Assembly: GCA_950295325.1 (NCBI GenBank)
Contig: OX485806.1
Location: 43,395,169 to 43,459,168 of the forward strand
Reading direction: 5' to 3'
Origin: Polytrichum commune
Lineage: Eukaryota > Streptophyta > Polytrichopsida > Polytrichales > Polytrichaceae
DNA length: 64,000 bases
Shown here: in pieces, positions 2,098 through 61,009 of the stretch
How the letters are laid out: every line of letters starts with the position of its first letter
How positions within the stretch are numbered: position 1 is the first letter of the stretch
Translations under genes and position numbers: made by a program
The notes under the pieces: model-generated
Told to the model about the DNA's origin: nothing
Databases searched by the model: none
Seen by the model: the letters and a program-made list of their open reading frames with translations, nothing else

Positions 2098-2571
2098 TGG
2101 GCGGACGTCGTAGGGGACGCCTATCAAGGACGGTCGCTGGTCCCAAAAAATGGGCTTCAAGACCTTGAGGTATTGGGGGGAAGCGGGGTTGTTTGGTTTT
2201 TTGACGGCTTTGCCGTCCTGTGTGTACAATATTCTACAGGCTTCCTGTGCTAGGACCATGCAGGGGGGCTCGATGCCCTTGAAGATGAACTCCACGACGG
2301 CATTGGTGTTCTCGGCCTTCATGGAGCTCCACACGACCACCCACCATCGTTGTTGGGCGACCTGGAGGAAGGTCCGAAGCCACGGGCGGAGGTGAACTAG
2401 CTTGCTCTTTATGAACGTGGGCGGCCCGTCGTAATTCACGTCCTTGGGCTTGCAAAAGGGCACCGTGGGGGTCCTAGGGCAATGAACGCATTGGACGAGG
2501 ACCCCGTTCAGGTCTAACACCAGGAATCGTTTCTTCGGCCGCGGGGGCGGGGCGGGTAAAATCGGGGGCAC
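2098..2571 (-). pseudogene. FCP1/HAD-like phosphatase domain, truncated copy A
   Basis: The frame encodes a Pro-rich leader followed by KKRFLVLDLNGVLVQC, then WWVVVWSSMKAEN and a segment ending at GVPYDVRP. This matches the start and middle of an FCP1/NIF-type HAD domain (CTD phosphatase or TIM50-like). The usual first motif DLDxT is here DLNGV: the nucleophile Asp is kept but the second Asp is Asn. Compared with the copy at 61010-61760, similarity stops at about 2098, so the last third, including the DDS motif, is missing and the frame runs into unrelated sequence to about 2047. No ATG is clear; the frame is open upstream and GTG is the first usable triplet, so the 5' end is uncertain. It lies downstream of, and codirectional with, the ParB/methyltransferase-like gene. 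Confidence 0.6.
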
Positions 2572-3248
2572 CGCTGCGCTGCCCTCTCCGCTCCTTGGAG
2601 AAGAACGTCGGGGAGCCGCTACGCTATGCTCCGAGCCCTGCGGATACGATCGAGAGAAAACGGTGTCGACTTATGTCATGCTATGTCCAAACAAAGCATT
2701 AAAGAAACAAGTGTTCTCGGTGCAAACACAAAACCATTTGATTCATTTTGGAGGGGGTGCAACAAAGGATACAAGAGAGGCAAGAGCATACAACATACAT
2801 TCAAACACAGGATACAAGTATATAGGAGTAAAAAATGGCGATTATATTGTATACAATGCTCTATGTACATCTTGATTGGGGGGAGCCGCGTTGAACGATG
2901 CGTTCAAACTAGCCTACTTCTACATCTAGCAAAAATTGAAGAGACGGGCCGCCGTGATGAAGACTTCGTCGCAAGCCGGGGGGTATGTGGACGAACGAAT
3001 GGTCGGGGGGATGTGGCGAAGGGCGCGAGTGCCGGGGGGGGGGCGACGTGTGCGTGAGTTTAGGGTAGCTAGGGGACACGACCAAGGCAAGAAAACAAAG
3101 GCCGATGGAGTTTGGGTCGACCGACCCAAACTGAGTGGGGTTAGTGCATTACCTCGCCTTGGTCGCGCCTTGACGACGTGGATATCGTCACCGCGTGCGC
3201 TGCCCCACCTCTGTCACCGCCGCCTCCGACGACAAATTCAGCCTCAAC
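2572..3248. other. Spacer between the FCP1-like and ParB/MTase-like genes
   Basis: Noncoding spacer matching 61761-62410 of the second copy, with a 35-bp length difference (extra sequence near 2735-2770 in this copy) and scattered substitutions. It contains one copy of the palindrome at 3111-3130. No promoter can be defined. Confidence 0.5.
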
Positions 3249-6200
3249 CTACTCATGCAAAGGCTGACTGTCAGGCCTTTGTCCCAACCCAACCTCCGCA
3301 TGCGCATCATGCATTGGTTCATCGACTGGGTTAGGAATAGAGGTATCACCAGACCCTTGTGGGCCTTCAACATCTAACATGGGCTCGTCCACCGGGGTCT
3401 GATCGGGGACGGGGTTTGGGTCGGCCGACCCAAACCCTGCTGCTTGGCGAGTGTCGCTCTGGGACGCTGCAACGTCGGCACTGTTTGGGTCGGATGACCC
3501 AAACATGTGGGGGTCGTCCCGTTGGTGGTGTGGGGGCGAGAGGATGGGAGGCCGGAGCGGCGGGGGCGCCAACGACTTGGACGCTCCGGGGACGCGCCAA
3601 AGGTTGGGGACGTCCACCTGCTGGACGGGCGCGTAAGGACGGGCGTGCGGCTGCAGCAACTGCGCGAAGCTGAAGGAATGCTGCAGCGTGGGCCGCGGGG
3701 CGATATCCTGTGGCGGGAAGCCTGCGGGCAAGTGCGGGAATGAACTCGGGGGAGCCATCACCAATCCCTGCGCCAGCATGCCCTGGATCACTTGCGTTAT
3801 GAGCTCCGTTTGGGACGAAGGTTGGGCCATCGCCCTTTGCCGCTCCTGCTCCAACAGGAGAGCCCTCAACTCCGCGACTTCGTTGCGGACCGAGGGCTCC
3901 TTGGCGGCAGCCTTCTCCAATCGGACGCGCTGCTCCTCGTCCCGGTGCATTTTGGCGTTGGCCTCTTCCACGGTGAGGACCTCCGGTTTCACCCTCACCA
4001 TCCCGGCGAACGCTGTGGGGGAGGCAAGATCCGACCTCAGCCTCTTCGCGAGCTCCATGTCGTCCTCGTCTTCGGAGCTTATGGCGATCGTCTCCTCCAC
4101 CGCATAGTCCCCGTACAGCTTCTTGCCCTTCAGCATTCGCCGCTCCCTGAAGGTGGCCGTCGTGTCCCTCGAATACATGTCCTTCCCGTCGGCCACCGTG
4201 AGGACGGGCACTAGTTTGCTCTGCGGCGTGGCAGCCCGCATGGCCTTCTTCCTCTGAGGGGCCTCGGATTCTTGAGTGAATCCTGTTGCCCCTTCCTCCA
4301 CCTCTCCTCCCACTTTCTCCTCCTCCTCCTCTTCCTCTTCCTCCTCCGCAACCTCGCCACCTGCCTCCACGGACGGATTGCCCGGATGCAATCCGATGAG
4401 GGGTTCTGGCAATTGAACGGGGGCCCGCATGGCGAATTCGCCTGGATTGATTCGCCTGGCCATATCCAACGGGTTCTCGCCCCCGTCGACGATCTCTTCG
4501 ACGTAGGATCCGGGTATCCAGTCGAGGATGTCCATTCTCTTCGCCAGTGCCTTCTGGGTCCTGTAGAATTGAACATCGGTATCCTCCACATAGGAGTAGA
4601 TGTTCAACCCAGACATCTACACAATCCAAATCAATAGTATTAGTATCACAAATGAAGAATGAGCAAAAATAACACCCAAAACAAAACAAGAATATTTAGT
4701 TTGGGTCGGTCGACCCAAACCAAGCATGCCCTAGTTTGGGTCGCTCGACCCAAACCACGCATATAGATCCATGAGGTTAGTTTCTTACCATTGGTGTAAA
4801 AACCGGTTTGGAGCCCCCGAAGACGTTGAAGATGAAATCCCCCCTCTTCGTGAGGGTCCTCATCATCCGCAGGTAAAAATCCATCCGCAGCTCATCTGCG
4901 GGGTAGTTGGTGTACTTCGCCTCGTCGTACAAGCTCCTGCTGGTGCCCAACCCTTCTGGGACTTGGAAAAGCTTTTCCATCCGGGCTATAGGATGGTTTG
5001 GCACCTTCAGCAGCTCAGCTTTGTACACGAAGTACAAGCACAACACTCAGACTATCCTGGTCTTCTTGTCTTTCAATGAGCTGTACGCCCCCTCCGCCGA
5101 TGCAGCAACGTAATGAGATTTTGAGACGGCGTACTCTGGTTGCAATTTACGCACGATCTCGTACACCTGCTCCGCCCTCCTGTCCTCGACAATCCACAAC
5201 CAGACGTCGACCTCCTTGAATTTGGGGCTGGCGTAGTCCACGAACTTGGTGAAGAACGGCTCGTAAAACGGGGTGCTCATTGTCCCCTCGAATGAGGCTC
5301 TAGGAATGTTCCTGAAGTCTATCATTCCGAAGGGGAAGCGGTCCCCGGCTGCAGTCCTGATCACCATCCTAGCATCAGAGCCCGGCCAACCTTGGATCTT
5401 TAGAGGCTCGAGGGAGACCAAGTTGAAGTGAGCTTCATCCTCGAACATGACGATCTTCTTCTCCTTTATAAAGTTGGAGAAGGCACGCGCGGAGTGTTCG
5501 GGAAGCGCCCGGTTCCTTCCCCCCTTCACGAGCTTGGACCAGAGGAAGTCGTCTCCCACCTCCCTCATGAGTGCCGCCATGGACGCACTGGTGAACTTAT
5601 ACTCGGCTTTGAATGCCCTCCAGTGCGCCTCGTCAACCTCTCCGTCCACGATGAGCTTCTTCTCGGGCACCAGCTTGTGCAGCTCTTGGACGATGGTCGT
5701 CTTCTTCTTCCTGTTCTCCGTCCATTCCTTCAAGGTGTAGCATGAAGGGACGCCGCCTTTCCCACCTCTCTCTCCGAGAGACCTTGAAGAGCTCTGAAAA
5801 ACTCCCTCACCAGTGGCTTCATTTGCTTGAAGCGCGCAGTCTGGTTGTACAGAATGCCGGTGTCGGGATCAATGAGGTCTCCCGTCTCGTGTTTTTCGAA
5901 GACAGTCTTCCATTTTGTCCACACGGAGTCGGACGCTGTAATCAAGTAGATTTCTCCTCTTAGCTCGTTATATTTTTTTTGCTTGTAGCTAGCATTGTCA
6001 ATAGAGGATAATGTATTGATCATCTGGTATTTGAAGTCATGTACATGAAGTCAAGAACATATGTTAGAGAACACATCATGAAAAAATGGAACAGCAGTTT
6101 GGGTCGATCGACCCAAACTTTAAATCTGATGAAAACTATAAGACAATCCAAGAGTTTGGGTCGATCGACCCAATCTACAAAACTTGCGAAGAAAATAAAA

Positions 6201-7682
6201 CAATACAAGAGTTTGGGTCGATCGACCCAAACTTACTCACCTCCCATTTTGGGTTCTTGTCTTTTGCATTCTCCCTTTCCTTGGGAGGCCTGCCATAGAA
6301 CTCCCACACATCTCTAGAGGCCATTATATTCCTAATCCAGGATGCCTGATACGCCCTCTTTTTATTCCCCATGTTGAAAAACCTGGAGATGTCACTGAGG
6401 ACGGTCTCGTTGTCCGACCAAACCACCAGTGCCTTCCATACCTTCAGCTTCTCCTTCTGGTTGTTGGAGTCGTCCCATTCAGTCATCAGCTGGATTTTTT
6501 GGAGGCCTCGACACTGTGCTGGCCGTCAATCAGCCAGAAATCTCCTTTAGAAATCGCCGGCCACATATCAGCCGTAGGCATTCTTTTTAGCCCCTGGGGC
6601 ATCACGACAATTGTCTGCCTGTCGTCCTTGAACTGCCCGCCCGAGATTTGAACGACCATCCAGTCGACATAGGCATCCTCCTTGGCTCGGACACACTTTT
6701 CAGGTGGCGCAAGGTGGCATTGTGAAATGTTCACCTCGAACTTGAAGTCCTTGCCCATGAAGAAGCAATGGAGGCATTTCGTCTCAAAATTGTCGTTGAT
6801 TTTTTGAATTTCCCTAGCATCAACCTCTTGGCCAGGCTTGGGCATCCGCAACTCTGGCGAAACTGGCTCGGTGGTCATGACTGATGACTCTTTTGCCCTT
6901 TTCGACGGGGTCGTCTGCCGGCTTCCTGAAGGCGTTGGCGTCTCGCTGTCAGCCGGAGTCGAGGTAGTGCTCGTTCTTCTAGAATCTGCCGGGACCGCCC
7001 GCGGAATCCTCACAGATTGGGGTCTAGAGGAACCTGCTCCTTCTTCTGTCTTGGCCTTCCGCCTGACAGGTTGTTGCGTTTTTGGTTTGCTTTGCAACGC
7101 CTTATTCATAACCGTGATCGCTTGTTTCAGTTTTGTGAACCTGCTAGCGACCTTGGTGTTCGATACAGTGCCATCTATGAAGATGGTCTCCGGGCCAACG
7201 CACGTCTCCTTGGCATATAGGGGGTCGAAAGCCTCGGAGAATTGGTGCATGAACATATGCACGTTCTGCACGGCGGAGTTCTCTAGAATAACGTCCACGT
7301 GCTCCCCGAGAGCTTGGACGGAAGCAACCTCCCATCCCGTCAGCGTTGCCCAGGTGTGTTGCTCGTGGGTCCCCACTTTCACCACGAACAAGAGCTTATA
7401 CTGGGAGGCTTTCACAACCTGAACGGACCACGCAAGAACGATCCCATCCTTTGGGACGTATGAGTCGTCCTGTGGAGTTTCGTACTCCTCCCAAAGGTGG
7501 TCTGGGGCGAGCATGAACCACCTCTCTCCAGGTCTCTTTTTAGGGGCCATCTGTAAGTCCAGAAACAAAATTGTTAGTTTAGGTCGATCGACCCAAAGTT
7601 TTTCAACTTGGATGTAACATAAGTGCGAATTGAAGGGTGCTCTACTGGCCATCATGAATAGGTTTGGGTCGACCGACCCAAA
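3111..7682. repeat. Ten dispersed 20-bp palindromes, cluster A
   Basis: Sites of the form TTTGGGTCG-NN-CGACCCAAA occur at 3111, 3415, 3484, 4700, 4735, 6098, 6155, 6212, 7578 and 7663. The 9-bp arms are nearly invariant, with one arm mismatch each at 3484, 6155 and 7578. The central two bases vary (AC, GC, GA, GT, CT, AT). Five lie in introns, two in coding sequence of the last exon, one in the 3' spacer and two around the 5' end. I saw none outside this block and its second copy. Confidence 0.92.
3249..7550 (-). pseudogene. ParB-like domain plus degenerate DNA-methyltransferase-like protein, copy A
   Basis: A minus-strand gene of at least three exons. Exon 1 (7550-6241) starts MAPKKRPGERW and contains a Ser/Thr/Pro-rich linker. 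It then has a segment with WPAISKGDFWLIDGQHSVEASKK, which fits the GxHR-like core of ParB N-terminal domains. Exon 2 (6023-4789) contains VDVWLWIVEDRRAEQVYEIVRKL and, at its end, GDFIFNVFGGSKPVFTPM. This joins exon 3 (4616-3249) SGLNIYSYVEDTDVQFY. The join resembles motif I and the following SAM-binding strand of N4/N6 DNA methylases. The expected DPPY motif is not seen; MIDFRNIP sits about where it should be, so catalysis is doubtful. Exon 3 continues with an acidic Glu run, a coiled-coil-like stretch and a Pro-rich tail. Introns 4617-4788 and 6024-6240 have GT-AG ends. About three reading-frame interruptions lie between 5.0 and 6.5 kb, and the C-terminus is 36 residues shorter than in the 62-kb copy, so this copy is probably dead. 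Domain assignment is by eye only. Confidence 0.5.
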
Positions 7683-8400
7683 CCCAAGCCTCGAATAGCC
7701 TAATCGTATAAGAATTATTGGTAGAGTTAGGGTCTTAAGAATATGAATATATTGAATATTGTGTAGTGGTCAAATTATCCAACAGGAGAGCAATTTGTGG
7801 TGACCTTCTAGAGCCGTGCTGGACGTATGTGGACATGCCAACAAATATCAGACGATTTCAAATTATAGCCATTTGAATATAATTTCTTGCTGATGGTGGG
7901 AAGGATGTTTATTTTGGGATATTGGATTTGTAGGTTGCAAAGTTTGGGTAGAACTTACGAATACTATATTGTTTGGAGTTGGATGAATATCCATTTACTA
8001 TATTTCAAAAAAAAATGAAATTCATCTTATTATTATGTTTTGGACTATATTGTCGAATGAAGAAATATGCATTTATTACATGCACTTTGTATGTTGCAAT
8101 GTCTATATTCTATTGAACATGCTAATAATATAAATCCTTTTATATATATTTTTGGGTGAAACTTGTTTGGAGTGCTCTACCCAATGTGTTTTTGTTGATG
8201 AAGTTGGTGTCGAGTGCTCTACCATATATGCTTATGTCCGCACATCATAGATTTGGGATATTAGAACATATAATATAATTGAGATTGTTGACAATATAGT
8301 TTCGGGCCTCTTCAAGTTCTTTGATCCATATATTAATTTGAGACTAGAGAAAGTCTCAATTTAACGAATATAGTGTTCTTTAGAGAGCGACTCTATGTTC
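7683..8400. other. No gene recognised
   Basis: AT-rich sequence upstream of the ParB/MTase-like gene. It could contain that gene's promoter, but no element can be pinned down. The right boundary of the duplicated block cannot be set because the second copy leaves the window. Confidence 0.35.
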
Positions 8401-8401
8401 T

Positions 8402-8856
8402 TTTTTGAAGTCCTTGAACCCCTGGCAGTTCCACCTCCAAATGCTTCGACTTTCTCTACTGCGGGCGACCTGAGTGATGATGACGAGGCCATTCCAGATG
8501 CCCCTTTGCACGATATATGTGAGTAAGTCAATGCCTTCGTTGGTTGATATTTTTTTTCTATTTATCTCTTACTTGTAATCCATCCTTTGTCCATCCCTAA
8601 ATCTTGCTATGAACATGGTAGTTTGACAAATTCAGGGAGACCGCTACGAACTCCACCTTCAACTTGGTACTTTCCGTCGCCGCCCCCAAGTCCTCGTGGC
8701 TTACCTGTATATGCTGAAGCCATGGCCTTGGCGTATGCCCATGGTAGCTCTGGGAATTCGACATCCTTATTCACTCCTAAGAATCATGTTGACCCTCAAG
8801 TTCTACGCTACTTTGATTTAGAAGCAGTGTCGAGCCCTCTATGTAGCAGTGATTGA
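8402..8856 (+). CDS. Possible two-exon fragment, function unknown
   Basis: An open segment at about 8402-8521 encodes an acidic, Pro-containing peptide (FEVLEPLAVPPPNAS, then LSDDDEAIPDAPLHD). It ends at a good donor, GA-GTAAGT. A second open segment from about 8636 follows a possible acceptor (ATTCAG) and reads a Pro/Ser-rich peptide ending CSSD, stop at 8856. I do not recognise the product. The splice sites and composition make it worth listing, but it may be chance. Confidence 0.2.
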
Positions 8857-10274
8857 AGTAATGGCGACCTTCTTGATCATACAAAGTATTTTGAGCTCCC
8901 AGGAATTGTCATGGATATAGGCCCCTTTAATAAAAATTGTGTTCTAAAACTTTCAAGTTTTAAGTGAAAACCACGGTCATAGAGCTCAAAAGTTCTCAAA
9001 TTCTTGCTCTAGTCCTGATTATAGGGCTTTATTTTCAATACAAAATTTCTAAAACTCTAGAAGTTATCGCTCACCGCTCACCGCTCACAAAATAGCATTC
9101 CTCCACCCGTACCACGAATTGAGTGCACTTCATCTCTACTTCCATCTATAAAAACATCCCCCGTTGTACTTCCGCCTCCAACTCCAAGGCCACTTGTTCC
9201 ATTGGATTGACTGTGTGGAAGTGAAACTGATGCGGATGGAATTGCAATTGGTATGTTCTCAACAACATGTCGACGAACAGATTGACGACGTGGCGCCTCT
9301 GTAGTAACATTTCTTGAAACATTGTGTATAGCAACCAAAGTAGCACCCACCGCAGTTGCACGTGAAACACCCAATCTAGAAGTATTGGCAATACTTCGAG
9401 TGAGAGGACGACGTTGACCTTATGCATGCACTTGTACCGTAGAGGTGGATGCAGTTCTTTGAAGAGCACGGAATCGAGTTGTAGGTATTTCAGGAACATT
9501 GGGCGTTTGATCTTCTATACGATGATTGGATATGAGGGAGGCGTCCATGGATTCAGAATGTACTCGGGCTGGAAATGGATCCTGTTGAACGTGCGTTGGT
9601 TCATTTGTGGGTAGTACATTGTCACCTTCACCAAAAGAAAGAGAATCGCTCCGAGGTTGCAAGGAATGTACTTCAATTCCTACATTCTCACTTGTCCCCA
9701 TAGCAACATTATGGTCAGGGCGAAACCCTTGTCCAGTGTGGAGAGTTTCAAAAGGCGGTCCTCCAATAGACCCCTCATGATCGTCATGCATTCCGTCATT
9801 ATGTTGGGGGACATCCGGTTCATCAAAATCAAACACCCCAAGCTTTCCATCACCACCATTGCCATCCTCATCTTCTGAATCATGATTCTCGGAATCGAGG
9901 TCATCCAAATCAAAGTCGATGTCATCAACATTGTTGTCATCATCATTTCCGGCCCTATCATTTGGATCCACGTCATCTTCTTCGTCAAGGTCATCGGCAG
10001 AATGGACCTCATTCAATTCGTACCATTGCGTAGGTCTTGGGCCCCTCCGATGTCGAATGAGCCTACTATTGGTATATATGTAGACGAGGTCCTCAGCACG
10101 ACTATGCTTCAAGCGATTGCGACTCTTGTTGTGAACATATGACACTAGTAGAAAATTTTGCGTCCGGATCAACAGAAAGGCGTTGGTCGCGGTTGTTACT
10201 TAGGACGCGTTGACCTGGACATGATGTAACACAATTTTGTTGATTTTTTCTGTTGATATGGTCACAAAAATATT

Positions 10275-10530
10275 TTTTTAAAAAAACTTATTATATATAT
10301 ATATATATATATACAACATTAAAAAATAAAAAACGAATAAATGTCAGATCTGCAATTCCTAACCCCTCTCCCACGTAACCCTCAACATATACCTCACCTA
10401 CAAGTATAGACTACCTACCACTCACATAGGTGGCAAGGCCAAGGCCGAAGGTGCCGGCCACGGGAATCGAACCTTGCACCTAGTGATACCCACACATGTG
10501 CCTTAACCACTAGGTCATCACATCACACAT
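10275..10530 (-). mobile_element. tRNA-derived SINE
   Basis: On the minus strand an A-box-like TAGTGGTTAAGG (complement of 10501-10512) is followed by a perfect B box GGTTCGATTCC (complement of 10463-10473). The spacing and tRNA-like sequence suit a pol III promoter. The sequence continues about 190 bp past the B box and ends in an A/T-rich tail near 10275-10310. That is the layout of a tRNA-derived SINE, not of a functional tRNA: no acceptor stem pairing or CCA-proximal structure is seen. Ends are approximate. Confidence 0.65.
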
Positions 10531-10611
10531 GATATAAACGGAGTGTTTTAAACCTTTCTAGAATAAGGCCACTAATTTCTCTTTACTACCTACTTGATGT
10601 ATATATTTACA

Positions 10612-11870
10612 GCAAATATATACAGTATATAATTACAGTATATATTTACAGTAAATATATACAGTATATAATTACAGTATATATTTACAGTAAATATATA
10701 CAGTATATAATTACAGTATATAATTACAGTAAATATATACAGTATATAATTACAGTAAATATATACAGTATATAATTACAGTAAATATATACAGTATATA
10801 ATTATAGTAAATATATACAGTATATAATTACAGTAAATATATACAGTATATAATTACAGTAAATATTTACAGTATATAATTACAGTAAATATATACAGTA
10901 TATAATTACAGTATATAATTACAGTAAATATATACAGTATATAATTACAGTAAATATATACAGTATATAATTACAGTAAATATATACAGTATATAATTAC
11001 AGTATATAATTACAGTAAATATATACAGTATATAATTACAGTAAATATATACAGTATATAATTACAGTAAATATATACAGTATATAATTACAGTAAATAT
11101 ATACAGTATATAATTACAGTAAATATATACAGTATATAATTACAGTAAATATATACAGTATATAATTACAGTAAATATATACAGTATATAATTACAGTAA
11201 ATATATACAGTATATAATTACAGTAAATATATACAGTATATAATTACAGTAAATATATACAGTATATAATTACAGTAAATATATACAGTATATAATTACA
11301 GTAAATATATACAGTATATAATTACAGTAAATATATACAGTATATAATTACAGTAAATATATACAGTATATAATTACAGTAAATATATACAGTATATAAT
11401 TACAGTAAATATATACAGTATATAATTACAGTAAATATATACAGTATATAATTACAGTAAATATATACAGTATATAATTACAGTAAATATATACAGTATA
11501 TAATTACAGTAAATATATACAGTATATAATTACAGTAAATATATACAGTATATAATTACAGTAAATATATACAGTATATAATTACAGTAAATATATACAG
11601 TATATAATTACAGTAATTATATACAGTATATAATTACAGTAAATATATACAGTATATAATTACAGTAAATATATACAGTATATAATTACAGTAATTATAT
11701 ACTGTATATAATTACAGTAAATATATACTGTATATAATTACAGTAAATATATACAGTATATAATTACAGTAAATATATACAGTATATAATTACTGTATAT
11801 ATACTGTATATATTTACTGTAATTATATACTGTATATAATTACAGTAAATATATACTGTATGTATTTACT
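10612..11870. repeat. 26-bp AT-rich minisatellite
   Basis: About 48 units built from two half-units, TATATACAGTATATAATTA and CAGTAAA. Most of the array has an exact 26-bp period. The left edge has shorter mixed units, and from about 11690 the sense of the core flips from ACAGT to ACTGT. An irregular TATA/CATA-rich tail continues to about 12065. Confidence 0.95.
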
Positions 11871-12034
11871 ATAAATGTATACATATTTATATATTATATA
11901 TTATATACATACATGTTACATATATGTTACATATATTATATACATATATGTTACATATATTATATATATACATATATACATACATACATATACATACATA
12001 TATACAGACATATATATACATATTATACATATTA

Positions 12035-12066
<32 letters not shown>

Positions 12067-14502
12067 CTATCAACTAATATAATATTTATAATATTTAAAC
12101 ACCTTTGAATTCGTAATTATTTCCATACCCATACACTTACAAGTCCATAAATTGCAAAAAATTAAAAAGATTTTACAATATTCCAATAGATCCTAGAATA
12201 TTCCAAAAAAGATTCAAAAAAGATTTCACATTTACTAAAATTTTGTTGATTTGGTCATTGTACTATTCTAATCAACAAAAATGTAGGCAGTAAACTGTTG
12301 ATTTTTACAAAAATTCAAAAATCAGTGAAATCGGTCATTGCAGTGCCCGGATCGACAAAGATCTGTTGATTTTTTGTTGATTTGGTCATGATTTTCTAGT
12401 AGTGTGAATACATGCTCCAATTGCGTTCACATGCGGATGCGGAACATACTTGTGCAAGGATACGTCTTGCTATTGTTTGGAGGGCTTTAGCTCCACCTCC
12501 CATTGCATCCCACCATTCATGGAGAGGTGCGGCATGCACGCTCGGGTCAGTAGAATCAGCAAAAGGCCCTCGATTTTCAAGGAAATCTTGGTACTGGTGG
12601 AGGATTTGGACATAAGTGTCCTCATCTTGAGCAAGCCTACGAAGAACTCGATTTAGGATTGTCCTCGAATTGTCATCCTCATGGAGTGGGGCCCAACCAC
12701 GTAGAAGCGGATTTAACATCGCTCCAGCCTAATGTAGATCATTCAACATCAACCTCCATCTATTTTGAAACGTTAGCATAGCATTTGCAGCAAGCTCAGG
12801 GCTTAAGCGAAATGGAGGTTTACTGAATCCACGAATATGGGTTTGTAAATCATGCATGACCCTCCAAGCCATTCCCATTGCAGGCGCCTTGCCATCAAAT
12901 ACACGAAGAGCTTTAACAACCGGGATCATCATATACAAGAAATTTTCGCACGTGTTCGAGAATCCATCAGAACGTATAAAGCTTCGCACAGCAGAGCCCT
13001 TCATGTAAGAGGTGCAAGATCTCCTCTTCATATCACGCATTAGAGTAGGCCAATCCTCATCAACCACCATTTTTTCCAAAGCATTGCGTACTTGGAGAAG
13101 ACGTTCTATCATGATGATGTTCGTTGCAAAACGGGTCTCTACAGGTAGGCGGAGTGAGAGATTTGGTGACAACCTCCGGAATATAGCTTGAGAAGCATGA
13201 TGGTTTTTAACAAATACACAAATATGGCGCACTTTTTTTACCAACTTTTTCACCCATTCCTCCTTCCCCCAATCTTCTAAGAGGAGATCTAGGCAATGTG
13301 CAGCACATCCTTGAAAATATAGATCGGGATTTGCTCGAATCAAGTTGCGAGCAGCGGAGGCCATAACTGGGGCATTGTCGGTGCAAACTTGGACCACATT
13401 ATGTCGACCAACCTTTTCCATAAATGGTTGAATTTGAGCAGCAACGTAGACATGATCCTTGGGATTTCCCGTGGTGTCAATGGTACCCAAGAAAACGTCT
13501 CCCTTTGTGCCACATTGAAGAACGTTTAGGAGAGGTCAGTTTTGCACGTTGTCCCATCCATCGCAACATATTGTAACGCCATATTTGTCAACGGAATTGC
13601 CCAGCTTCTCCTTCACTTGCCTATCTAGGTCAACATTTTTATCAGTTAACAACTTCGTACGGATGGCATTGTATGATGGTGGTGTGTAGGTTGGCATTCG
13701 ATGACGGGCAGTTTCACGCACAGCATGAACAAATGCAAGATGCCTCACAATGTTGAAAGGAATGTTAGCTTCATAAAAAGCCGTTGCCCATGCTCTATCA
13801 AGGAGTTGTTTTGTTGACACATTAAACCCCTCCGTTATGTTGAGTTGACGTAGTTCACGAGGAGGTGTGCCATATATCACAACATCAGAATGTTGAGTGG
13901 ATTGGGACATAAGCAAAGGCTCTGTTTCACTAATTACGGAGTTCGCTATAATAGGCTCCAGAGGTACAATATCTGGCACCGGAGAGTCCTCATTTACAAT
14001 GCCTACATATAAGGGCACAATGCCTCCGCAATGTTCAAACAAGACCCTAATATGCGGGGGAACCATCTTACATGTGGAAACATCACAAGCACCCCTTACA
14101 GGAGGTCTATAACCAAGGTGGGCCAACATTCTATTTCCTCGGTAAGATATGACGAACGGGCAAAACCTACATTTAACCTGCCTTTGTGATTTACCGGGAA
14201 CCATCCCCTTATCCTCGTACCAATGATCCCATGCATCATTTCGGCGTTACATGACTTCAACAAAACCTGCAAATACAAACAAGTTAGAGCAAGTAACTTT
14301 GATCGCATACTAGGTCATGTTCAAGAGTGCCACAAGGGCAACCCTAATTCACAGTCACTAGATTGGACAAAGTATCCTCTGCATTTCGGGTCTCACGCAT
14401 TCAATCCTCACTCCTCAAAGGAGAATCAAAAGACTTGAGACACACTATGTCAGTGGAGGCAAAAATGGCACCTTGAACCCTCAATTTATAGTATTCGAAT
14501 CG

Positions 14503-14720
14503 GACGGGGGAGCGGACGGAGGGGGGGACGAGAGAGGGTGGGAAGCGGACGGGGGGCGGACGGGGGGGGGGGGGGGGGGCGGACGGGAGAGGGGGGGGGG
14601 GGAGCGGACGAGGGGGGCGGACGGAGGGGGGGGGAGCGGACGGGGCGGGGACGGGGCGGGGAACGGGAGCGGACGGGGGGGAACGTGGGTGAACGGGGGT
14701 TGGGAACAGGGGCGGACGGG
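14503..14720 (+). repeat. G-tract array
   Basis: Imperfect repeats of GGAGCGGACGGGG-like units, including one run of about 20 G. The plus strand is almost pure purine with frequent C at GCGGAC. It lies just upstream of the hAT coding region and may be subterminal hAT sequence or an independent simple repeat. Confidence 0.85.
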
Positions 14721-14866
14721 CTCTAGTAAATTTTTCCCCACTTTACCTTTATTTTGCTGACATGTCATCACACGTGGACATTGTAAATCCTACGTGTCCG
14801 AATTGGGTTAATGTAATTACACAAAAAAATCGGTAAAATTCAAGTCCGTCAGGATAAAGACAGCAT

Positions 14867-14918
14867 CCGGCATAATGTCGTGACGGATCCGTGTCGTGAC
14901 GGCACGACATTATACCGG
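14867..14918. repeat. Inverted repeat (hairpin)
   Basis: Arms 14867-14882 and 14903-14918 pair over 15 of 16 bases (CCGG, one mismatch, ATAATGTCGTG), with a 20-base loop that itself contains GTCGTGACGG. It lies at the left edge of the TCCGGA-rich block. Confidence 0.8.
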
Positions 14919-15686
14919 GATTACCCTCCGTCACGACACAATAGACAACCCTGCCGGCGGGTACTCTATCCGGGTCCGCCTGGGTCCCCTACAGGAACCC
15001 TGTACGAGGTAGTTGGCGAGGTCGCTCTAGTTCAGAACCCGCCAACGTCTGCAGGACCCAGCCAGCAGGGAGGAGGCTCTCGGCCGGCTAGTTCCAGGAG
15101 AGCTCCGGAAGGGGTCCGTTCTCCCCAGGTGAGGAGGAAGAGTACCGGGTCGGTCAGATCCGGAAGAGGCCAGTCCCCTGTTCCACGGAACTTGGATCGG
15201 TCCCGGGCTCCAAACAGGGCTAGGACACCAATCCGGCATCAGACGTCGGATCGAGAGGCAACTCCGAATAAGGGCAAGGCCCCTATGGCCCACGCCTCGC
15301 CGTCGTCTCCTCCGGACTGCCAAATGGTCAACCCCTTTCCTCCGCCACCCTCAAGAGCGGCCTCCAACAGGGATCTGCGGACTGCCTCGATGTCGGGCGG
15401 GCAAAATTCGGAACAAGGCACCGGAAGCGATCCTTCTCCGGTCCGGAGCATCCGGAAAGGGACAATTTCCGAAACCCCAGGGATAGTCTCCGGAACACCA
15501 AGGACCGGGACACCCCGGACCGAGGGAGCAGCGGACTCGGAGGACGAGATTGCCCCGTCTCCAAACATGAGGAGGATGCTCACATGGCTCCAGAAGGCAT
15601 CACCGGGTGGAGGCTCATCCGCCGTCAGCGGACTCGGCAGTCATTCGAAGGAAGGATCGGCTCAAAAGAAGCACCGCTCTTCTTAG
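14880..15686 (+). CDS. Ser/Pro/Arg/Gly-rich ORF of 268 codons, function unknown
   Basis: A long open frame coding for a disordered, basic, Ser/Pro/Gly-rich protein. It contains phosphosite-like SPxR repeats and ends with a short structured-looking piece (SPNMRRMLTWLQKA) and a basic tail (KKHRSS). There is no recognised domain. It is followed by a long noncoding, TCCGGA-rich region, so it may be the tail of a retroelement-type reading frame or a low-complexity ORF kept open by high GC. The first ATG lies in the hairpin and may not be the true start. Confidence 0.3.
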   Translation: MTDPCRDGTTLYRDYPPSRHNRQPCRRVLYPGPPGSPTGTLYEVVGEVALVQNPPTSAGPSQQGGGSRPASSRRAPEGVRSPQVRRKSTGSVRSGRGQSPVPRNLDRSRAPNRARTPIRHQTSDREATPNKGKAPMAHASPSSPPDCQMVNPFPPPPSRAASNRDLRTASMSGGQNSEQGTGSDPSPVRSIRKGTISETPGIVSGTPRTGTPRTEGAADSEDEIAPSPNMRRMLTWLQKASPGGGSSAVSGLGSHSKEGSAQKKHRSS

Positions 15687-16995
15687 CTTAGAAAGGCATC
15701 TAGATTAGTGAGGTAGAAAGGTAGAACTTAGGAGTTTTGTAAATGAGGAATAAAATTCTCTCTTGGGTGTATCAGCGGGAAATCCGGATCTTGATCCGGG
15801 AAATCCGGGAGAACGAGTGTAGTTAGGGTTTTCCTTAGCGGCGGCCGCTTGGGCCGCCGCCCTCAGTTTAGGGATTTTGGGCCTCTACTTAAGGCTGAAT
15901 AAGGAGTTGGGGAAGGGTTCCTTCTCCATTGTTGTATTGTGATTACTCCTACTCTAAATAAATGCCTTGGCTTCTCACTCCTTGACTTTCCTTTATTGAT
16001 GTTTGTGTGAATGATCCGGAGATCATTAGCGGAGGAGAGAGAGAGCATGAGGGATAGGAGTTCCGGATAGGACATGAGAGAGGAGACCCGGATCAGATCT
16101 GGTTATTACCTTGTAGATCATCTCTGGGTGTAGTGGGAGGGAAACCTCACTAATCCGGTGGGTTGAATAATGTCTAGGTGGGATAGCCGCTGGGAAGATT
16201 GGATGAGATCCGGAAGGGGTCCGAACTTACGCCAATCTGATCTTCTGAAGAGGTCCCACCGCCCTTAGACGGACCCATCCGGATGGTGGTACGGATCGCC
16301 CAGTTAGCTCAGATTGAGTGAAACCCAAGGTAGAGGTAGCCGGACAAATCCGTCAGAAGGAGAAGGGAAGGTCCGGATCAGTAAGGGTTCCGGGTTGGAG
16401 GCCACCTCCGGAGTGTAGTAGGAAGAGATCCTCATTGTTCCGGATGTCTGGGTAACGTTCCGGTGAGACAGCCGTGGGGAAAATTAGGTAAAGGTCCGGA
16501 AGGGATCCGGACTTACCATCCAATCATCCCGTTGAGTCAGATCTCCGATCGGAATCCGGACTCCTCTAGTCACTATGGTCCCAAGAAACAATCCGGATCT
16601 CTCTGTGTGACCTGCCAAGACGGATCTGATCAATCCGGATTGGTTGTGAGGGAGTTTCCAGATTGTAATCTTATCAAGGACGGCTTCACCTGAAGAAACC
16701 ACCTATTCTAGAGGGTAGACGTAGAGGGGTCAGTGAGCATTATAATTAGGACCTAAAGGTACCATCCGGAAAGGCACACTCCGGAAAAAGGCTAAGAGTG
16801 TCCCTAAAGACCTAAATTCCGGAAATTAGGGTTTCCAAAAAATTGGCTAAAGAAGAGGAAATAAGCAGGTACGGAGAGTTCTAGACCTCCTACACTTCAC
16901 AGAATCCCTGGACGATACTAGGGTCATCCGGACAGACCGGATTAGGCACTTAAAACCGCCAATCCGGATATGTTGGTGTTCGCGTGTTCCCACAA
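15687..16995. repeat. TCCGGA-rich block, probable retroelement-derived noncoding
   Basis: Together with the preceding ORF this block carries roughly forty TCCGG or CCGGA hexamer-like sites, far above the surrounding sequence. It lacks good ORFs. It stops abruptly at 16995, where the repeat shared with 31.5-33.7 kb begins. An LTR-like origin is possible, but no ends or TSD were identified. Confidence 0.45.
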
Positions 16996-18965
16996 TGCAT
17001 TCTCAATGGCCTAAAAGAAACGCTTGAGAACCTCCTCTACTCTCTCTCCTAGTTAGAATGTGTGTTTATTAACACACCAACAAAATGATTCCTTCTTTTG
17101 TAGAGGTAGGTTGGATGGTAGAGTTTTGAGTGGAGGCATTGTAGACCTCATCTGCCAATGCCCTGAAGGCTTAGTTCAAAAGCTAGAAAAATATACTTAT
17201 CATTTTTCTCTTAGAGACATTTCCTATAGCTATCCATAGCCGTTTCCCATTTGTGATTTGGTTAAGATGACAATTAGTTATGGATTTTCAAAGATGGAGT
17301 AGAAAAAACTGGGTGGTCTTGTGGGTAGCGGCTGCTGGATCAGACCTGCAAGCCCAATAGGAATTTTAATTCTAAGAAGTTATATTTTTTCCAAGTAGAA
17401 CTTTTGTGTAGCTTTCCAAAATGGCTTAGAACATTTGATTTGAGCATGATTTGAATTAGATATGAATTGTTGAAGATGGGACACATAGTTTGAGAACTTT
17501 TGGTTGACTGCTACATTACAAAGGATCTGCTAGGTTCACGTCGGCTAACCTTTCTAATCACATATTTTTTTCAAATACATCTTTTTAATATCTCTTCAGG
17601 GTCATATAGAACGTTTTATTTGAATAAGATTTGAATTAGATATGAATTGTTGAAGGCGAGATACATAGTTTAAGCCTTCTTGATTGACTGTTGTGTTACA
17701 AGGAATCTGCTGAATTTCTATTAGCTTAACTTGCTGATGTCATAATTTTCCTAGTTAGAACATATTCATAGCTTTCCAATGGTATAAGGAAAGCCTAGAC
17801 CCAAGTAGTAAGGAATGTGCTATGAATTTTTGAAGGTAGAAGTTAGATAGGTGGGTTGGAAGGGTCGGCTGAATCGACCTCACACTTCCAACCCTCATAA
17901 CTTTTGCATTTCTTATCCGATTAGAGTGATTTTTAGATCATTGGAAAGATTATTAGGTGAACTAAGTATAAATATTATGCTTAGGATTAAATTACAGTGC
18001 AGAATAAACACTTTATATTTTAATTGTTAACTAAGGTACGCTTACTACCAAACTAGTTACAAAGAAGGAGGCAAGGTCGACGCTCGGAAAGTGGAGCAAG
18101 GAAGGAGGTAGCGGCTCGGCCTACATCAAGCCCAAATCAACCGAGGAGAATTGAGGTAAATTAACTAACCTTAAGCCTTCCATTTAGGATTGGGGGGAGC
18201 GCGGCTAAGGTTCCAGTGTAAACACATTTAACAATCAAAACATATAAAATAAATCGTGAACCCTTGTTGGCAAGAGACCCGAATCGGAAACTTAACTCGG
18301 TAGAGTGACACCACCCTTCGAACCATTGATGTTCGAATGGATTTGAGATGTCACTCAACCTTCAAAGGACCTGCACGAGGCCTTAGAAGGTTCCGAGGTA
18401 AGAGGTGCACCAACCAGGTAAGGGGTGATGCCTAATATGTGAATGTAGTGAAGTAAGAGGTGCAAACGAAAGTAAATAATTAAGAAGGAATTTGTGTGAA
18501 GGGTGGGACTTAGGCCAAGTTCCCCCGCTTAGAAAACTAAATAGAACTAAGTAAATAAATAGGAAGAATTGAATGGTCCATCAAATTGTCGTTATTCCGT
18601 TCATTGAGCTAGGGTGGTATGAGTCACACCCGGTTGGTATGTATCAGAACCATCATAATTCACAAATTAGGATTGCCTTGGTTTCAAGGCTGGTGCGTCT
18701 GCGCGTAAAATAGGTTGTAGGTTAAGGTTAGAACTAGATATGAAATTGGTTTGTGGAGTTTAGAGCCACACTAGTAAAAAACTAAGGCCCAACCTCCGGA
18801 GGTACTACGACGCATATTTAATCTCCCTTAAAAATCTAACTACTGACGTTATACACCTATCATCCGGGTTCGGCTTGGGCGCCTGCAAGTGAAGGCCACC
18901 TTCACCGAAGGGCTTGTGTGATACTTTTAGGCTCCCTCGAAAGGGGGTGGCCCAAAAGTACCACA
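16996..18965 (-). mobile_element. Partial LTR-like repeat X, inverted relative to 31543-33720
   Basis: Read on the minus strand it begins TGTGGTACTTTTGG and is highly similar to the first about 2.2 kb of the element at 31543-34380, with a few internal length differences. The matching far end of that element is not present here; similarity stops at the TCCGGA block. No TSD is seen. It is a fossil, incomplete copy of the same family. Confidence 0.7.
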
Positions 18966-19089: not shown

Positions 19090-22000
19090 TGTCTACGTAC
19101 TCTTGCTGCCATGCCCAGTAGGAAAAAATCCTCAAGATGCTAGATTATGATACCTTGCAACTTGAAGAAATGAATTTCCTCCCGCCTCACTTTGATGGGA
19201 ATCGGATGTTTGTCCTCCCCCCCGTTGGTGTCATCCTCTCATACGAAGGCCAAATCCATGGACGGCATGGACAAATGCTACGATGGCCATGTCTGGACCA
19301 AAACCCAGACCACCAATATTAGCAATGACATAGGCCTTGTTTTTCGCTCCTCCAGTGCCAAAATCCTCATTGCGACTACCTCCAACGTGTTCATCGTACC
19401 TCCTCAGTCAATGATATTGAATTCGATGGATTTACCAAGGACCCCTTTCCCGTTGGTGGTCCCATGCCTACCTTCTCCACTCTAGTGTGCAATATTTGCA
19501 AGGAGCCACCCAAATGCATTGCACCCTCCGTTGCCAAAATCTTCTACATCCACGGCAACGACTCAACGGGCGTGCATTCATCTTGGCAATCATCATCAAC
19601 CCGTCAAGATCAGCAATTGCAGGGATAGCCGCCAGCTCATCGACGCCCTAATCGAGGAGCATGTCGAGTGAACGCCCCAAGCCACTCATAGCAAAATTGT
19701 ACTTGAAGCCAGCAAGGACCTTGTGGGTGAGTTCCTCCTCCGCAATGATAGTGATCCTCATCAAGTTCTTTCGTTGCAGGAACTTGAACTCGTTTTTTAT
19801 CGCTGCAAGGAGTTGAATTTCCCCCACCTCCGAAACAAGGTTACCACTTTCAAATACTTACGTAGGTTAAGGGTTATGGATGGCAGCGCCAAGCTTCGAG
19901 GTGTCAACACCTAGGCCTATGTCCAGCGGTATCAATTCCTCCTCCGCAATGATAGTGATCCTCATCAAGTTCTTTCGTTGCAGGAACTTGAGCCCGTCTT
20001 TTATCACTGCAAAGAGTTGAATTCCCCCCACCTTCGAAACAAGGTTACCACTTTCAAATACTTACGTAGGTTAGGGGTTATGGATGGCATCGCCAAGCTT
20101 CGAGGTGTCAGCATCTAGGCCTATGTCCAACGGTATCAATTCCCAGGCCAGGGTGACGAGACAGAGTTTTCGTCTTCAAGATGTCCGAGGTTGGCCCCGG
20201 TAGTGGGGTTGACTTGGTTAAGCGCATGCAACCTGGCGGGGATCTCAAGCATGCTTGGATCATGTTAGACCATGTCAAACGCATCGCCAAGTGGACCACC
20301 ATGGCCTGCCATGTATACAACGGAACCTACCAACGCGTCATGACCATCGCTTGATGCGACTTCCAATCCGAGGACAAGGATGCTCAAGTGTTTTTCAAGC
20401 ATAACCTCAACCATGTTATAGCTTGCTATGGAATCCCCAAGCCTCACTTTAAAGGCTTCATGGCGGACATTACGCAAGTCAATTGGAATGTCGTCAGGAT
20501 TGTCTATGGGTCCGGAGATCCAAAAGTTCCCATCGATGGGCGTGAGAGAACCTGTTACTTCCATTGGACCCAGTCTTTGGAGAAACACACCAAACTCTAT
20601 ATCAAACACGACTTGCAAGACCAACACAAGCGTCTCTGCCTCCAATATCGCGACGCATCCTCTATGCAGGAGGCTGAGACGAGGTACCTCGCCATCAAGG
20701 CCTGGTGGGCTTCGTCTAACTACACCTTCAAGGATGGACTGAAACACCTTCAACTTTGGCTTGCCTTCTGGCACTTCCGATATCGACAATGGGATGGCTT
20801 CATGGAATTGGTGCGTCTTTAGTGTTATTGCTTATTATTTTTTGTTTTATCTTTTCTTTTCCCAACCTTTGCTTATTTCTTACACTGCCATTCCATTGGG
20901 CAGGAGAAAATCATGACCGCCGAGGAATTTGCACAAATGCCCAATGGCAACCTTCCTGAATTCATTCACAACAAATGGCTACAAGCGTCCGGCAACAAGG
21001 GTGGCGATCTTTACGTGGCCACTGTGGATGACTATATTCGAGCGTTCCTCCAAGTTTTGGTGTACCATCAATTTCTAAAGGGTGGCGTTGGGGGGGATGG
21101 CCCTAGCAAAGAAGAACTCAAGCTTCGATGTGCTCAACGTTGTGTTCAACGTACCGGTGACCCCGCTGTTCAAAAGAAGGTTCTCCTCGACATGCCCGGC
21201 AGGGACGAATTCTGCACCCGTAGTCCCCACCTCGAGGATGCCGAGGTATTTGGTCCGCAAAAACGCAAACCCGACACTCCCATTGGAGATGACAATGAAA
21301 CCCACCGCCCCGATACCATCAACTTCACTCGTCCTCGTGTCGCTCAAAGAACCACAAGATCTCATGCTTCACTTTTGCCTACCATCGTTGAGGAATCTTC
21401 TCCGTCAGTGCTAGATGTTCCACCAACCCCTCCTACTGGTCTTGATTTTCGCCGCGTCACTGCCGTACAAGAATCCAAAGTGGACGAGAAGCTCTGGCAT
21501 ATTGCTCGCCTTCCTTACAATTCATCCAATGCATGTTGGGCCATGCATGCTGTCACCAAGAAAAAATGCACTGCCAAAATCGTCTCCAACTCCAAGAGCA
21601 CCCCTGCCCTGGCATACCTTGGAGTTTGAAACTATTACAAATTCACAACACCTAAAGTCAAGAAGTTCTTTTTTTGCCTGGACGACATTGAGCGTTGTGT
21701 CAAAGGTTTGCGTCACAAGTGGGTCGACAAATTCTTTGCTTACCAAGAACGACCTCCAATCCCGCCCGTGTGGCTAGTCAAGCTTGGTACCAACCTCACT
21801 TGTCCGAAGTTTCTGAAGCTTGAAAATGTCGGCTTTCAGCTCCTGCAGAAAGAACGCATCATGCCCACTCGCCTCTTTAGCACATCCGCTCTCCCCTCGA
21901 CCTCTCCGGAGTGGACGTTCCAGTCAACCCAGACGATTATCCTTCTTCCAGGCAGTCCAAGTCTACAAAACGGTTTGCCACCACACCATCAATAAAACAA

Positions 22001-24441: not shown

Positions 24442-25414
24442 TGTCGCAACCCTTGCTAATCCCCCTTGACAATCTTGCCAATTTTCAATTCTAGCAAAGG
24501 TTACGAGCGCTAACCATTCGCATTCCGCCATGCTAATGGTTAGCTCCTCCTACCCCGGACCTTATAGTTCATAGGAGGGAACCAACCCTCCTACTTTGCT
24601 TTCGGGACTCACCCCTTAATCGGTAACCCATTTCCCCAATGTGGACTTCCATCCATGGAAGTCCAATCCTATGTTGATCATCGCGTTGCCGGAGCAACAC
24701 TACAACAACCCGAACCATACTAGGCAACTATGGCCTCACATTGGGCCAATGCCCATGGAGGCCGTGCCGTTCGGCCTCGGGTGGGTGAGGCCACACCACC
24801 TCACCCATATAAGCCTCTAGGACTCTACGCGGGGCCCCTACCCCACCGTCAACCAACCTCTTGTCTCTCTACCAAGAGTTGGGGCCAAGTGGACATTTTC
24901 CCTTAGCCGCTGGGCCTGGAAGCCCCCACAGCTTCAGACCATCATAACTTCCTTGTATGATGTCTGATGCTAACACTTGACCACTCCATCTTCATCTACG
25001 CTTCACGTAGATGCCGATGCACTCCTCACTTGCCCCATTCGGGCAAGTGGTGAGGAAGTTATGCCTGTTTGAACCTTGGCAGTCCCAGGAATCACTCCCA
25101 GGCACTGCTGTACCAGGGCGCTGTCCCGGGACAGCGCCCCACTCAAATGGCCATAACTCCTAGCTCACACCTCCGATTAAGGTGTTCTTGAGCATTCTAG
25201 AATCACCACGCCATGAGCTACGCATAGCTTATGGCCTTACCCTTGTGCATCCTATCCTCCGTGGGTGGGGGGCGTTCCCAACGCCCGGGGCCCTCACCCA
25301 CACTAGGATCACTTGGGCCCTCTCACCAACGGCGCCACAAGTCCCGGGTGTCACTCCGGGGTCCCCCTTGTGCCCATGGTGTTTCGGGCACTCCTCATGG
25401 AAAGGTGCGCGACA
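24442..25414 (+). mobile_element. Solo LTR, family A, copy 2 (973 bp)
   Basis: Same ends as copy 1 (TGTCGCAACC and GTGCGCGACA) and the same length. Flanks CATAT (24437-24441) and CATGT (25415-25419) agree at four of five bases, as expected for a slightly aged TSD. No internal region adjoins. Confidence 0.87.
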
Positions 25415-25419
25415 CATGT

Positions 25420-29519: not shown

Positions 29520-30492
29520 TGTCACAACCTTCGCTAGCTCTCTTTAACTAAATTGACCATTTTCATTTCTAGCAAGTGTCATGAGCGCTAACCCTTCGCA
29601 TTCCGCCATGATTCCGCCATACCAATGGTTAGCTCCTCCTACCCCGGACCTTATAGTTAATAGGATGGAAACCAACCCTTCTACTTTGCTTTTCGGATTC
29701 ACCCCTTAATCAGTAACCAATTTTAAGATGTACACTTCTATTCATGGAAATCCAATCTTATGTTTGTCAGAGCAACACTATAACAACCCAAACCATACTA
29801 GGCAACTGTACCCTCATATTGGGCCAAAGCCCATGGAGGCCGTGCCGTTCGGCCTCGGGTGGGTTTGGCCAGACCACCTCACCCATACAAGCCTTTAGGA
29901 CTTTTGGCTGGGCCCCTACCCCACCGTCAAAAAGAAATTTGTCTCTCTACCAAGAGTTGGAACCAAGTAGACAATTCTCCTTAGGCGCTTGGGCTAGAAG
30001 CCCTAGCAGCTTCAGAACATAAAAAAAAAATTATGATATCTCATGCTAATAAACAACCACTCCATCGGCATCTACGTTTTACGTTTTACGTAGATGCCAA
30101 AGGACGTCTCACGTGCCCCATTTGGACAAATATCGAGGAAGTCATGCATGTTCAAACCTTGGCAATCTTGGGAGCCACTCCCAGGCCACTACTGTACCAG
30201 GGTGTTGTCCCGGGACAACGCCCAATTCATATCGCCATAACTCCTAGCTCAAACCTTTCATTGAGATAAGCATTCTAGAATCAACACGCCATAAGCTACG
30301 CATAGCTGATGGCCTAACCCTCATGCCACTTAAACTCCATAGGTGGGAGGCGTTACCAACGCCCGGGGCTTTCATCCACACTAGGAGCACTTGGGCCCTC
30401 TCACCAATGGCGCCACAAGTCCCGGGTGTCACTCTGGGGTCCCCCTCGTGCCCATGGTGTTTTAGGCATTCTTCATGGAGAGGTACGTGGCA
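29520..30492 (+). mobile_element. Solo LTR, family A, copy 3 (diverged, 973 bp)
   Basis: Aligns end to end with the other family-A LTRs and keeps the 973-bp length, but is clearly the most diverged, including its termini (TGTCACAACC and CGTGGCA). Flanks TAGAG and TAAAA match at three of five positions. This is the oldest insertion of the four. Confidence 0.78.
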
Positions 30493-31029
30493 TAAAAAAA
30501 AATGTTTGAAAGATGGGAGATCAAGGGTTAGTCTAAGTGAGGCCATTTGACAAATGTTAAGACCTACGAAATGTGAAGAAAAGATGGTCATAACTATTAA
30601 CTTCAAAATTTGTAAGTAATAATTAAATATTAGAAACAATAAATAATTTTTTTGCATTGCATTGGAATTAACATTGATTATTTACTGAAAGAACTTGTTG
30701 TGATTTAACAATGCATTTGCCAATGGTTAAAAAGACAATTGCTACACTAGAAAACCTACTTTTACCAAAAACTATAATTGCATCTTACTATCAAGCAATG
30801 GAAACTTCCTAACCACATGCGAAAGACAAGATTGAATAAGATATTAAAAGTGAGGTCCTAAGAGGAACCCTTAAGAGAAAGAGAAGTGAAAGACATGTCA
30901 ATTGTGTTTTTAAAATGAAATTAGAACCTTTTTGACTAGTTAATAAACTATAATGTGCCAGATGCTTGTAAGAGATACCACCATCCTTGACAACCTCTTA
31001 TTAAAGGTTTTTGTTATTTTAAATCATCG
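30493..31029. other. No gene recognised
   Basis: AT-rich sequence between LTR copy 3 and the start of the A/C-rich LINE-like body. Confidence 0.35.
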
Positions 31030-60857: not shown

Positions 60858-61009
60858 CTGGCGCAAAAAAGAAACGAAACAAAACCCAAGGGAGGAGGGT
60901 TTGATAGAGCGCGTGAAAATCAAGATACATATGAAGCATATATTACACAAAATGAACGGGTGCGCGCGCGCACACATACATACATACACATACAAACACA
61001 CGTAGTGTC

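Follow-up and report, generated by a model that had tools for sequence, protein, structure and literature searches.

A 22-bp palindrome shared by two types of DNA transposon in the moss Polytrichum commune: a candidate site for a dimeric DNA-binding protein

This study investigated a palindrome repeated in and around a ParB-like gene in a 64,000-bp stretch of the genome of the moss Polytrichum commune (the window; contig OX485806.1, C4:43395169-43459168). The results revealed that the palindrome lies within large DNA transposons at all copies whose surroundings were examined, that two transposon types carry the same site, that its arms are constrained at the DNA level, that its central dinucleotide follows a rule, and that both arms have changed symmetrically, at the protein level, in a divergent group of homologues. 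We propose that the palindrome is the site of a dimeric, sequence-specific protein acting on these transposons in a VANC-like manner, an explanation that has, in our judgment, about an even chance of being correct. We infer both the identity and the dimerization of this protein, and analogy suggests that it may counteract silencing.

Searching the window with the pattern TTTGGGTCGNNCGACCCAAA and up to three mismatches identified 15 matches, 10 at 3111-7682 and 5 at 62272-63915, in agreement with an earlier note on this DNA, which had reported ten sites in one gene block and five in a second. Dinucleotide shuffles gave a mean of 0.01 matches, and a chance origin of the sites was therefore rejected. 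Seven of the ten sites in the first block are perfect, as the note had counted, with the centres AC, GC, GT, CT, AT, AT, and AC; the centre GA, which it had listed among them, belongs to the imperfect site at 3484. Constant arms around a variable centre were likewise confirmed, but not the reported length of 20 bp. G and C flank 147 of 166 sites (window and fetched copies, ≤3 mismatches, including three weak sites with three mismatches and the centre CA at a single constant position towards the right end of the longer copies E1-E3 described below), and the full unit is therefore G-TTTGGGTCG-NN-CGACCCAAA-C, 22 bp in length. Flanking sequence, which the note had described as not shared, is in part shared: a 57-bp spacing separates the sites at 6098, 6155, and 6212, with 69% of the spacer common to the first two, and the longer copies contain regular tandem arrays.

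Eight of the ten sites in the first block are intronic or lie 5' of the start codon of the minus-strand ParB-like gene, and two lie in its coding exon 3. Following the gene from its 5' side, the palindromes, which have no strand, are located upstream of the gene at 7663-7682 (centre AC); in an inferred 5' intron at 7578-7597 (one mismatch, AT); in intron 1 at 6212-6231 (AT, 9 bp past the intron start), 6155-6174 (one mismatch, AT), and 6098-6117 (AT); in intron 2 at 4735-4754 (CT) and 4700-4719 (GT); in exon 3 at 3484-3503 (one mismatch, GA, encoding FGSSDPN) and 3415-3434 (GC, encoding FGSADPN); and in an inferred intron 3 at 3111-3130 (AC). Those of the second block, at 62272-62291, 62576-62595, 62645-62664, 63861-63880, and 63896-63915, match the sites at 3111, 3415, 3484, 4700, and 4735, respectively. 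When the degenerate pattern was sought throughout the window with two mismatches, the only additional match was a decayed palindrome at 60401-60420, in an apparent later intron of the second copy and with two mismatches to the degenerate form; this remnant suggests that the pattern may extend further along the gene.

The note had seen no copies elsewhere. Apart from the decayed remnant, this is correct for the window but not for the genome (407.8 Mb, 64 contigs), which contains 9,731 perfect sites. The genome-wide search with up to one arm mismatch that the note had proposed identified 12,519 sites, and TTTNGGNCGNNCGNCCNAAA gave 10,839 matches; the reversed pattern gave 0 in each case. Among 169 sites with up to one mismatch (window and fetched loci used, leaving out the three weak CA-centre sites), 92 centres were purine-pyrimidine (RY), 77 were RR or YY, and none was YR, whereas the spacers were 25% YR (p = 5e-22, or 3e-9 with each combination of cluster and centre entered a single time). 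All 12 non-YR dinucleotides were present as centres, and the centre CG occurred at 0 sites genome-wide. A YR centre read in the frame of FGSxDPN would encode H, R, Y, or C at the variable residue, and none of these occurred there in 42 homologue motifs. Such a restricted central step would fit indirect readout by a dimer.

Two transposon types carrying the palindrome

A DNA transposon of 17-18 kb, with 28-bp terminal inverted repeats (AACACTATATTCG...) and a 4-bp target-site duplication, is present in the window as two damaged copies, and these contain all 15 sites. The "second copy of the block" of the earlier note is thus one of two truncated copies of a single transposon, as marked by the terminal repeats at 8350-8377 and 59548-59575. 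Copy 1 (2099-8377, minus strand) has its 5' end at 8377, where the terminal inverted repeat (8350-8377, minus strand) is identical at 28/28 positions to the ends of E1 and E3; the copy is internally deleted, and its 3' part beyond 2099 is missing. By blastn, 2099-7620 corresponds to E1 12394-18109, and 7937-8377 to E1 1758-2199. Copy 2 (59548-64000, minus strand) has its 3' end at 59548, with a 28/28 terminal inverted repeat (59548-59575, plus strand), is internally deleted, and runs past the window into locus L010. The observed/expected CpG ratio was 0.87 at 2099-7720 and 0.99 at 60070-64000, compared with 0.54 at 7720-60070.

The longer copies E1 (L012+L013; 18,084 bp), E2 (L014+L015), and E3 (L016+L017 reversed; 16,952 bp) match the window block by blastn and extend on both sides. 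E1 and E3 have identical 28-bp inverted ends and the duplications AAGT and ATAA, respectively; the right end of E2 has three changes in the terminal repeat, and its left end lies beyond the fetched stretch. The left gene of E1 is transposase-like and matches DUF7869 (PF25273, E=7e-38), which we take to be a transposase marker; a literature search for DUF7869 found no paper. The right gene, in divergent orientation, comprises the ParB-like gene followed by a NIF phosphatase exon (PF03031, E=4.4e-15). At some points, E1 and the window copies carry interruptions or lose the reading frame. The element shares the PF25273 transposase-like gene and terminal inverted repeats with DUF7869-bearing DNA transposons, and differs from them in its added ParB/NIF gene and palindrome arrays.

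E1 contains 41 sites (this count and those for E2 and E3 at ≤3 mismatches), of which 17 form a 78-bp tandem array whose beginning lies approximately 110 bp away from the transposase-like open reading frame (ORF) on its start side, 13 precede the ParB-like start codon, and others lie in the introns and exon 3 of the ParB-like gene. Near the transposase-like gene, E2 has 13 sites and E3 has 21; each has 5 before the ParB-like gene. Their array periods are 56-66 bp, and both periods and spacers are unlike those of E1. Across elements, the periods are 78, 64/56, 57, 36, and 32 bp. At ≤1 mismatch, the E1 sites leave 5.3 kb free at the left end and 2.7 kb at the right end.

We fetched ten site groups among the matches listed, all at the start of contig C1 (0.43-3.5 Mb). 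All ten lie inside two transposon types; three are E1-E3, and the other seven (L022, L023, two in L024, L025, L018, and L020, by blastn to the N18 copy) belong to a second, apparently unrelated type. The two L024 groups probably represent a single array into which another sequence has inserted. Two copies of this type, N18 (L018+L019) and N20 (L020+L021), start with GAGGGAAGCTATC..., which recurs inverted and with five changes at the other end, and have 10-bp target-site duplications (ACTTTTCCAC and CACCATGGCT). The same palindrome is present in both, in 32-bp arrays; in N18, one array precedes a plus-strand gene and another separates two minus-strand ORFs. The plus-strand protein of N18 has a DGNHR-like motif by eye and a methylase match below the cut-off (PF01555, E=0.13), and its structure model was of low confidence (mean predicted local distance difference test score 48.8) and too poor to use. 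The N18 transposase ORFs (L018:3229-4581 and 4861-7086) matched 0 Pfam families. The 10-bp duplication and terminal inverted repeats are shared with Mutator-like elements, whereas the transposase ORFs have no Pfam match; the type is called Mutator-like by resemblance only. ORFs resembling the N18 transposase-like ORFs by eye also occur at 20355-21629 and 46872-47543 of the window, with no palindrome nearby. A 2.27-kb stretch is 99.9% identical between two second-type copies (L022:4742-7017 and L024:5451-7726), and a peptide from its edge is also present in the transposase-like ORF of E1.

Constraint on the arms between copies and their symmetric change in homologues

In the gene region, 11 sites occupy the same alignment columns in several copies. 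Between E1 and E2, 160 of 162 arm positions are identical, compared with 8/18 centre positions and 528/760 intron positions outside the sites (Fisher p = 3e-20), and identity outside all sites is 5572/7034 (approximately 79%). The E1-E3 comparison gave 179/180, 9/20, and 536/773 for arms, centres, and introns. Within exon 3, differing codons for identical amino acids were counted at 1/12 (E2-window copy 1) and 0/12 (E1-E2) positions inside the sites and at 117/307 and 25/75 outside them, or 44/113 and 13/37 when only the same six amino acids were considered. These findings show that the constraint on the arms acts at the DNA level. Simple recent duplication, which the earlier note had named as a possible cause of arm identity, was rejected, because copies only about 79% identical overall agree at 160 of 162 arm positions.

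We identified 57 homologues of the ParB-like exon and 43 of exon 3; one, P0056, is from a cyanobacterial metagenome bin (28% identical) and is perhaps contamination. Back-translation revealed a palindrome-capable peptide behind exon 1 in 22 of the 57. The exon-1 end KNPKWEV is kept in 32 of the 57, of which 20 have such a peptide, and two more have it behind a variant end. In exon 3, FGSxDPN is present in 22 of 43 homologues (36 copies), and P0071 uses another frame; FRAxARN occurs in three, FGPxGPN-like forms occur in P0083 and P0100, and P0093 has only other-frame forms. The codon-choice script gives chance hits elsewhere in proteins; a single hit therefore carries little weight, and the informative hits are those repeated at fixed places.

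In a divergent group of homologues, the usual forms FGSxDPN and VWVDRPK are replaced, and both arms are changed alike. FRAxARN (P0082, P0084, P0085) and VSGDRPK (P0029, P0030, P0034) both back-translate to TTTCGGGCG, ISVDRPK and VSVARPK (P0032, P0033) to TTTCGGTCG, and FGPAGPN (P0083) to TTTGGGCC; half-changed sites (FGSGDRN, FRSGDPN, FRAVDRN) are present too. The P. commune genome contains 0 perfect sites with TTTCGGGCG arms and 0 with TTTCGGTCG arms. The longest contig is 5,065 bp for both P0034 and P0082, and we guess that they may be one gene whose intron and exon sites changed alike. Viral contigs, bacterial and archaeal genomes, phages, and plasmids yielded no gene relative and no exact palindrome, in collections that may lack records close to this genome. 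The single viral match (L001) was rejected as a phage with a short "GDFWLID" match in an unrelated protein.

Candidate binding protein and competing explanations

The ParB-like gene begins with a start codon at 7550 and has splice signals at 6240/5936 (intron 1) and 4788/4618 (intron 2); a third intron probably spans 3152 to 2638. This structure was read from splice signals in the sequence and is least certain for intron 3 and for the 5' intron. Exon 1 (6241-7550, minus strand) encodes a PH-like domain, a linker, and a ParB fold, according to a homologue's structure model, and has one frame change near 6500. Exon 2 (4789-5935, minus strand) has a frame change and one stop in copy 1 and matched 0 Pfam families. 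Exon 3 (3153-4617, minus strand) encodes an acidic, low-complexity region and holds the two coding palindromes (FGSxDPN). The NIF/FCP1-like phosphatase exon (2099-2637, minus strand) is truncated in copy 1 (PF03031, E=6.7e-09), and its counterpart in copy 2 lies at 61013-61813 (E=2.9e-14).

The earlier note had described the gene as seeming to encode a ParB-like domain, and the homologue's model, which has the ParB/sulfiredoxin fold, supports this description, although Pfam returned no family for either the window exon (E ≤0.1) or P0004 (E ≤1). A PDB search by sequence returned no ParB-family or other convincing match, and NCBIfam gave sub-threshold matches only. For divergent relatives, the PHROGs matches were weak and fell in families whose function is unknown (P0053 to phrog_2260, E 0.005; P0056 to phrog_10099, E 0.016). 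A methyltransferase character, suspected by eye in exons 2-3, received no support from Pfam: the read-through exons and the E1 ORFs of exons 2-3 matched no methylase family, the sole match being a weak, unrelated one to TAF1C.

In the VANDAL/VANC anti-silencing system of Arabidopsis (Hosaka et al.; PMC5735166, PMC10398659), an accessory gene is accompanied by a short noncoding motif multiplied in tandem repeats, related elements have different motifs, and the VANC motif also occurs in the unrelated transposon AT9TSD1. The elements described here likewise combine an accessory gene with a noncoding motif in tandem arrays, a motif that differs in related elements (here at the protein level: FRAxARN, VSGDRPK, ISVDRPK, FGPAGPN), and its occurrence in an unrelated transposon type. 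VANC motifs are 8-9 bp long, and the main text of PMC5735166 does not contain the word palindrome, whereas the site described here is a 22-bp palindrome with a ruled two-base centre that also occurs in coding sequence, and the accessory gene, whose product has a ParB fold, is adjoined by an NIF phosphatase exon. Among the matches listed, literature searches yielded no such repeat for TTTGGGTCG and nothing relevant for ParB with methyltransferase, moss, transposon, or palindrome; a narrower ParB/transposon/methylase search found nothing, and one for both arms with transposon or palindrome gave nothing relevant by title and abstract.

On the basis of this analogy, we favour a predicted regulator that would work like VANC, and we claim no membership of the VANC family. 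In the longer copies, the arrays facing the starts of the divergently oriented transposase-like and accessory genes hold 5-21 sites and would be docking sites, with further sites in the introns and one disordered coding stretch of the accessory gene. The binder would most likely be the transposon-encoded ParB-fold protein, or else a protein of the second type using the same site; once bound, it could coat its own element and maintain the element's activity, for example by opposing host silencing, as VANC does for VANDAL elements. Self-recognition of transposons through a motif would then have an apparent second and independent example. Its natural sites number in the thousands, its recognition sequence is long and symmetric, its centre follows a clear rule, and variants occur in other genomes, so that the coevolution of a DNA-binding protein with its sites across the genome could be tested directly. 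A fold known from bacterial partition would also enter the biology of eukaryotic transposons. A bolder version, which we consider unlikely, is a eukaryotic system resembling ParB-parS, in which a ParB-fold protein would load at the palindromes, spread, and shield the element from silencing; the palindrome would be a species-wide "password" common to unrelated transposons, and its two arms would change in step with the evolution of the protein. The system described here differs from ParB-parS, Noc, and KorB in belonging to a eukaryotic transposon and in having a protein with no Pfam match, in which a ParB-type DNA-reading domain was not identified.

Several observations weigh against a transposon-encoded, VANC-like binder. 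Bacterial ParB reads its palindrome by a helix-turn-helix domain, and no such domain was found in the ParB-like protein. The second-type accessory protein has no significant similarity to the ParB-like protein (hhalign P 0.17), yet the two transposon types share one site, which a shared or host factor would fit equally well. The suggested role against silencing is based on analogy and on CpG ratios, which are confounded by coding content and age, and the ratio is also high (0.81-0.84) at 8001-16000 of the window. The exonic synonymous test gave Fisher p values of 0.054 and 0.021 in small comparisons that share E2. The alternate arms were deduced from proteins by back-translation rather than from DNA; 12 of the 32 KNPKWEV homologues, which have short tails and include two partial forms, contain no palindrome-capable peptide, and 14 of 43 exon 3 homologues have no recognizable form, most of them ending or shifting frame before the region. 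Finally, the transposon context was read at ten fetched groups from the first part of one contig.

A serious rival, although in our view a somewhat unlikely one, is a host transcription factor or chromatin protein that binds the palindrome and was recruited by both transposon types through promoter and intronic enhancer arrays, its specificity varying by host species. It is serious because the same arms occur in two types with dissimilar accessory proteins and other sites occur in homologues elsewhere; moreover, both alternate arms tested are absent here, so that the arm type seems tied to the genome rather than to the transposon family. However, a near-invariant 22-bp palindrome would be unusually long for such a factor, the accessory gene itself retains sites in its introns and in a coding exon, and 0 of the 10 fetched groups fell outside the two types. 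We consider it improbable that the sites are transposase-binding repeats for excision and insertion. Many DNA transposons have repeated transposase sites, and one array lies beside the transposase-like gene, but the E1 sites remain 5.3 kb and 2.7 kb from the ends, away from the terminal repeats, and two different transposases would need one common site.

Action of the palindromes as RNA hairpins, in splicing or RNA-protein binding, would accord with the intronic or 5' position of 8 of the 10 window sites, including the one 9 bp past the start of intron 1. This explanation appears very improbable, because arrays also lie between divergent genes, a 2-nt loop would be unable to close and yet arm positions 9/12 are G/C in most sites, and imperfect sites have no G-U bias (in the transcript, 7578 gives G-U and 3484 gives A-C). 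The earlier note had offered either a dimeric binder or a tiny self-inserting mobile palindrome. The arm constraint and centre rule support the former in part; the latter is scarcely credible despite the very high copy number and varied surroundings of the sites. Their positions are conserved between copies approximately 79% identical, tandem periods are element-specific (78, 64/56, and 32 bp), 10 of 10 fetched groups lie within the two transposon types, and no clean insertion was seen in comparisons that lacked an empty orthologous site.

Other repeats in the window

The window contains further repeat features. A long AT-rich tandem and inverted array of TATATACTGTAATTATA-like units occupies 10590-11813 and is largely self-complementary over 1.2 kb, and a hAT-like remnant at 12729-14246 matches DUF659 (E=4e-24), with a sub-threshold match to a BED finger. 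Another dispersed repeat is present in both orientations at 332-1287, 24461-25419, 29710-30493, and 48030-48887, with 71-97% identity by piece, and three of its four copies have a 24-bp palindrome of their own, TGGACTTCCATCCATGGAAGTCCA.

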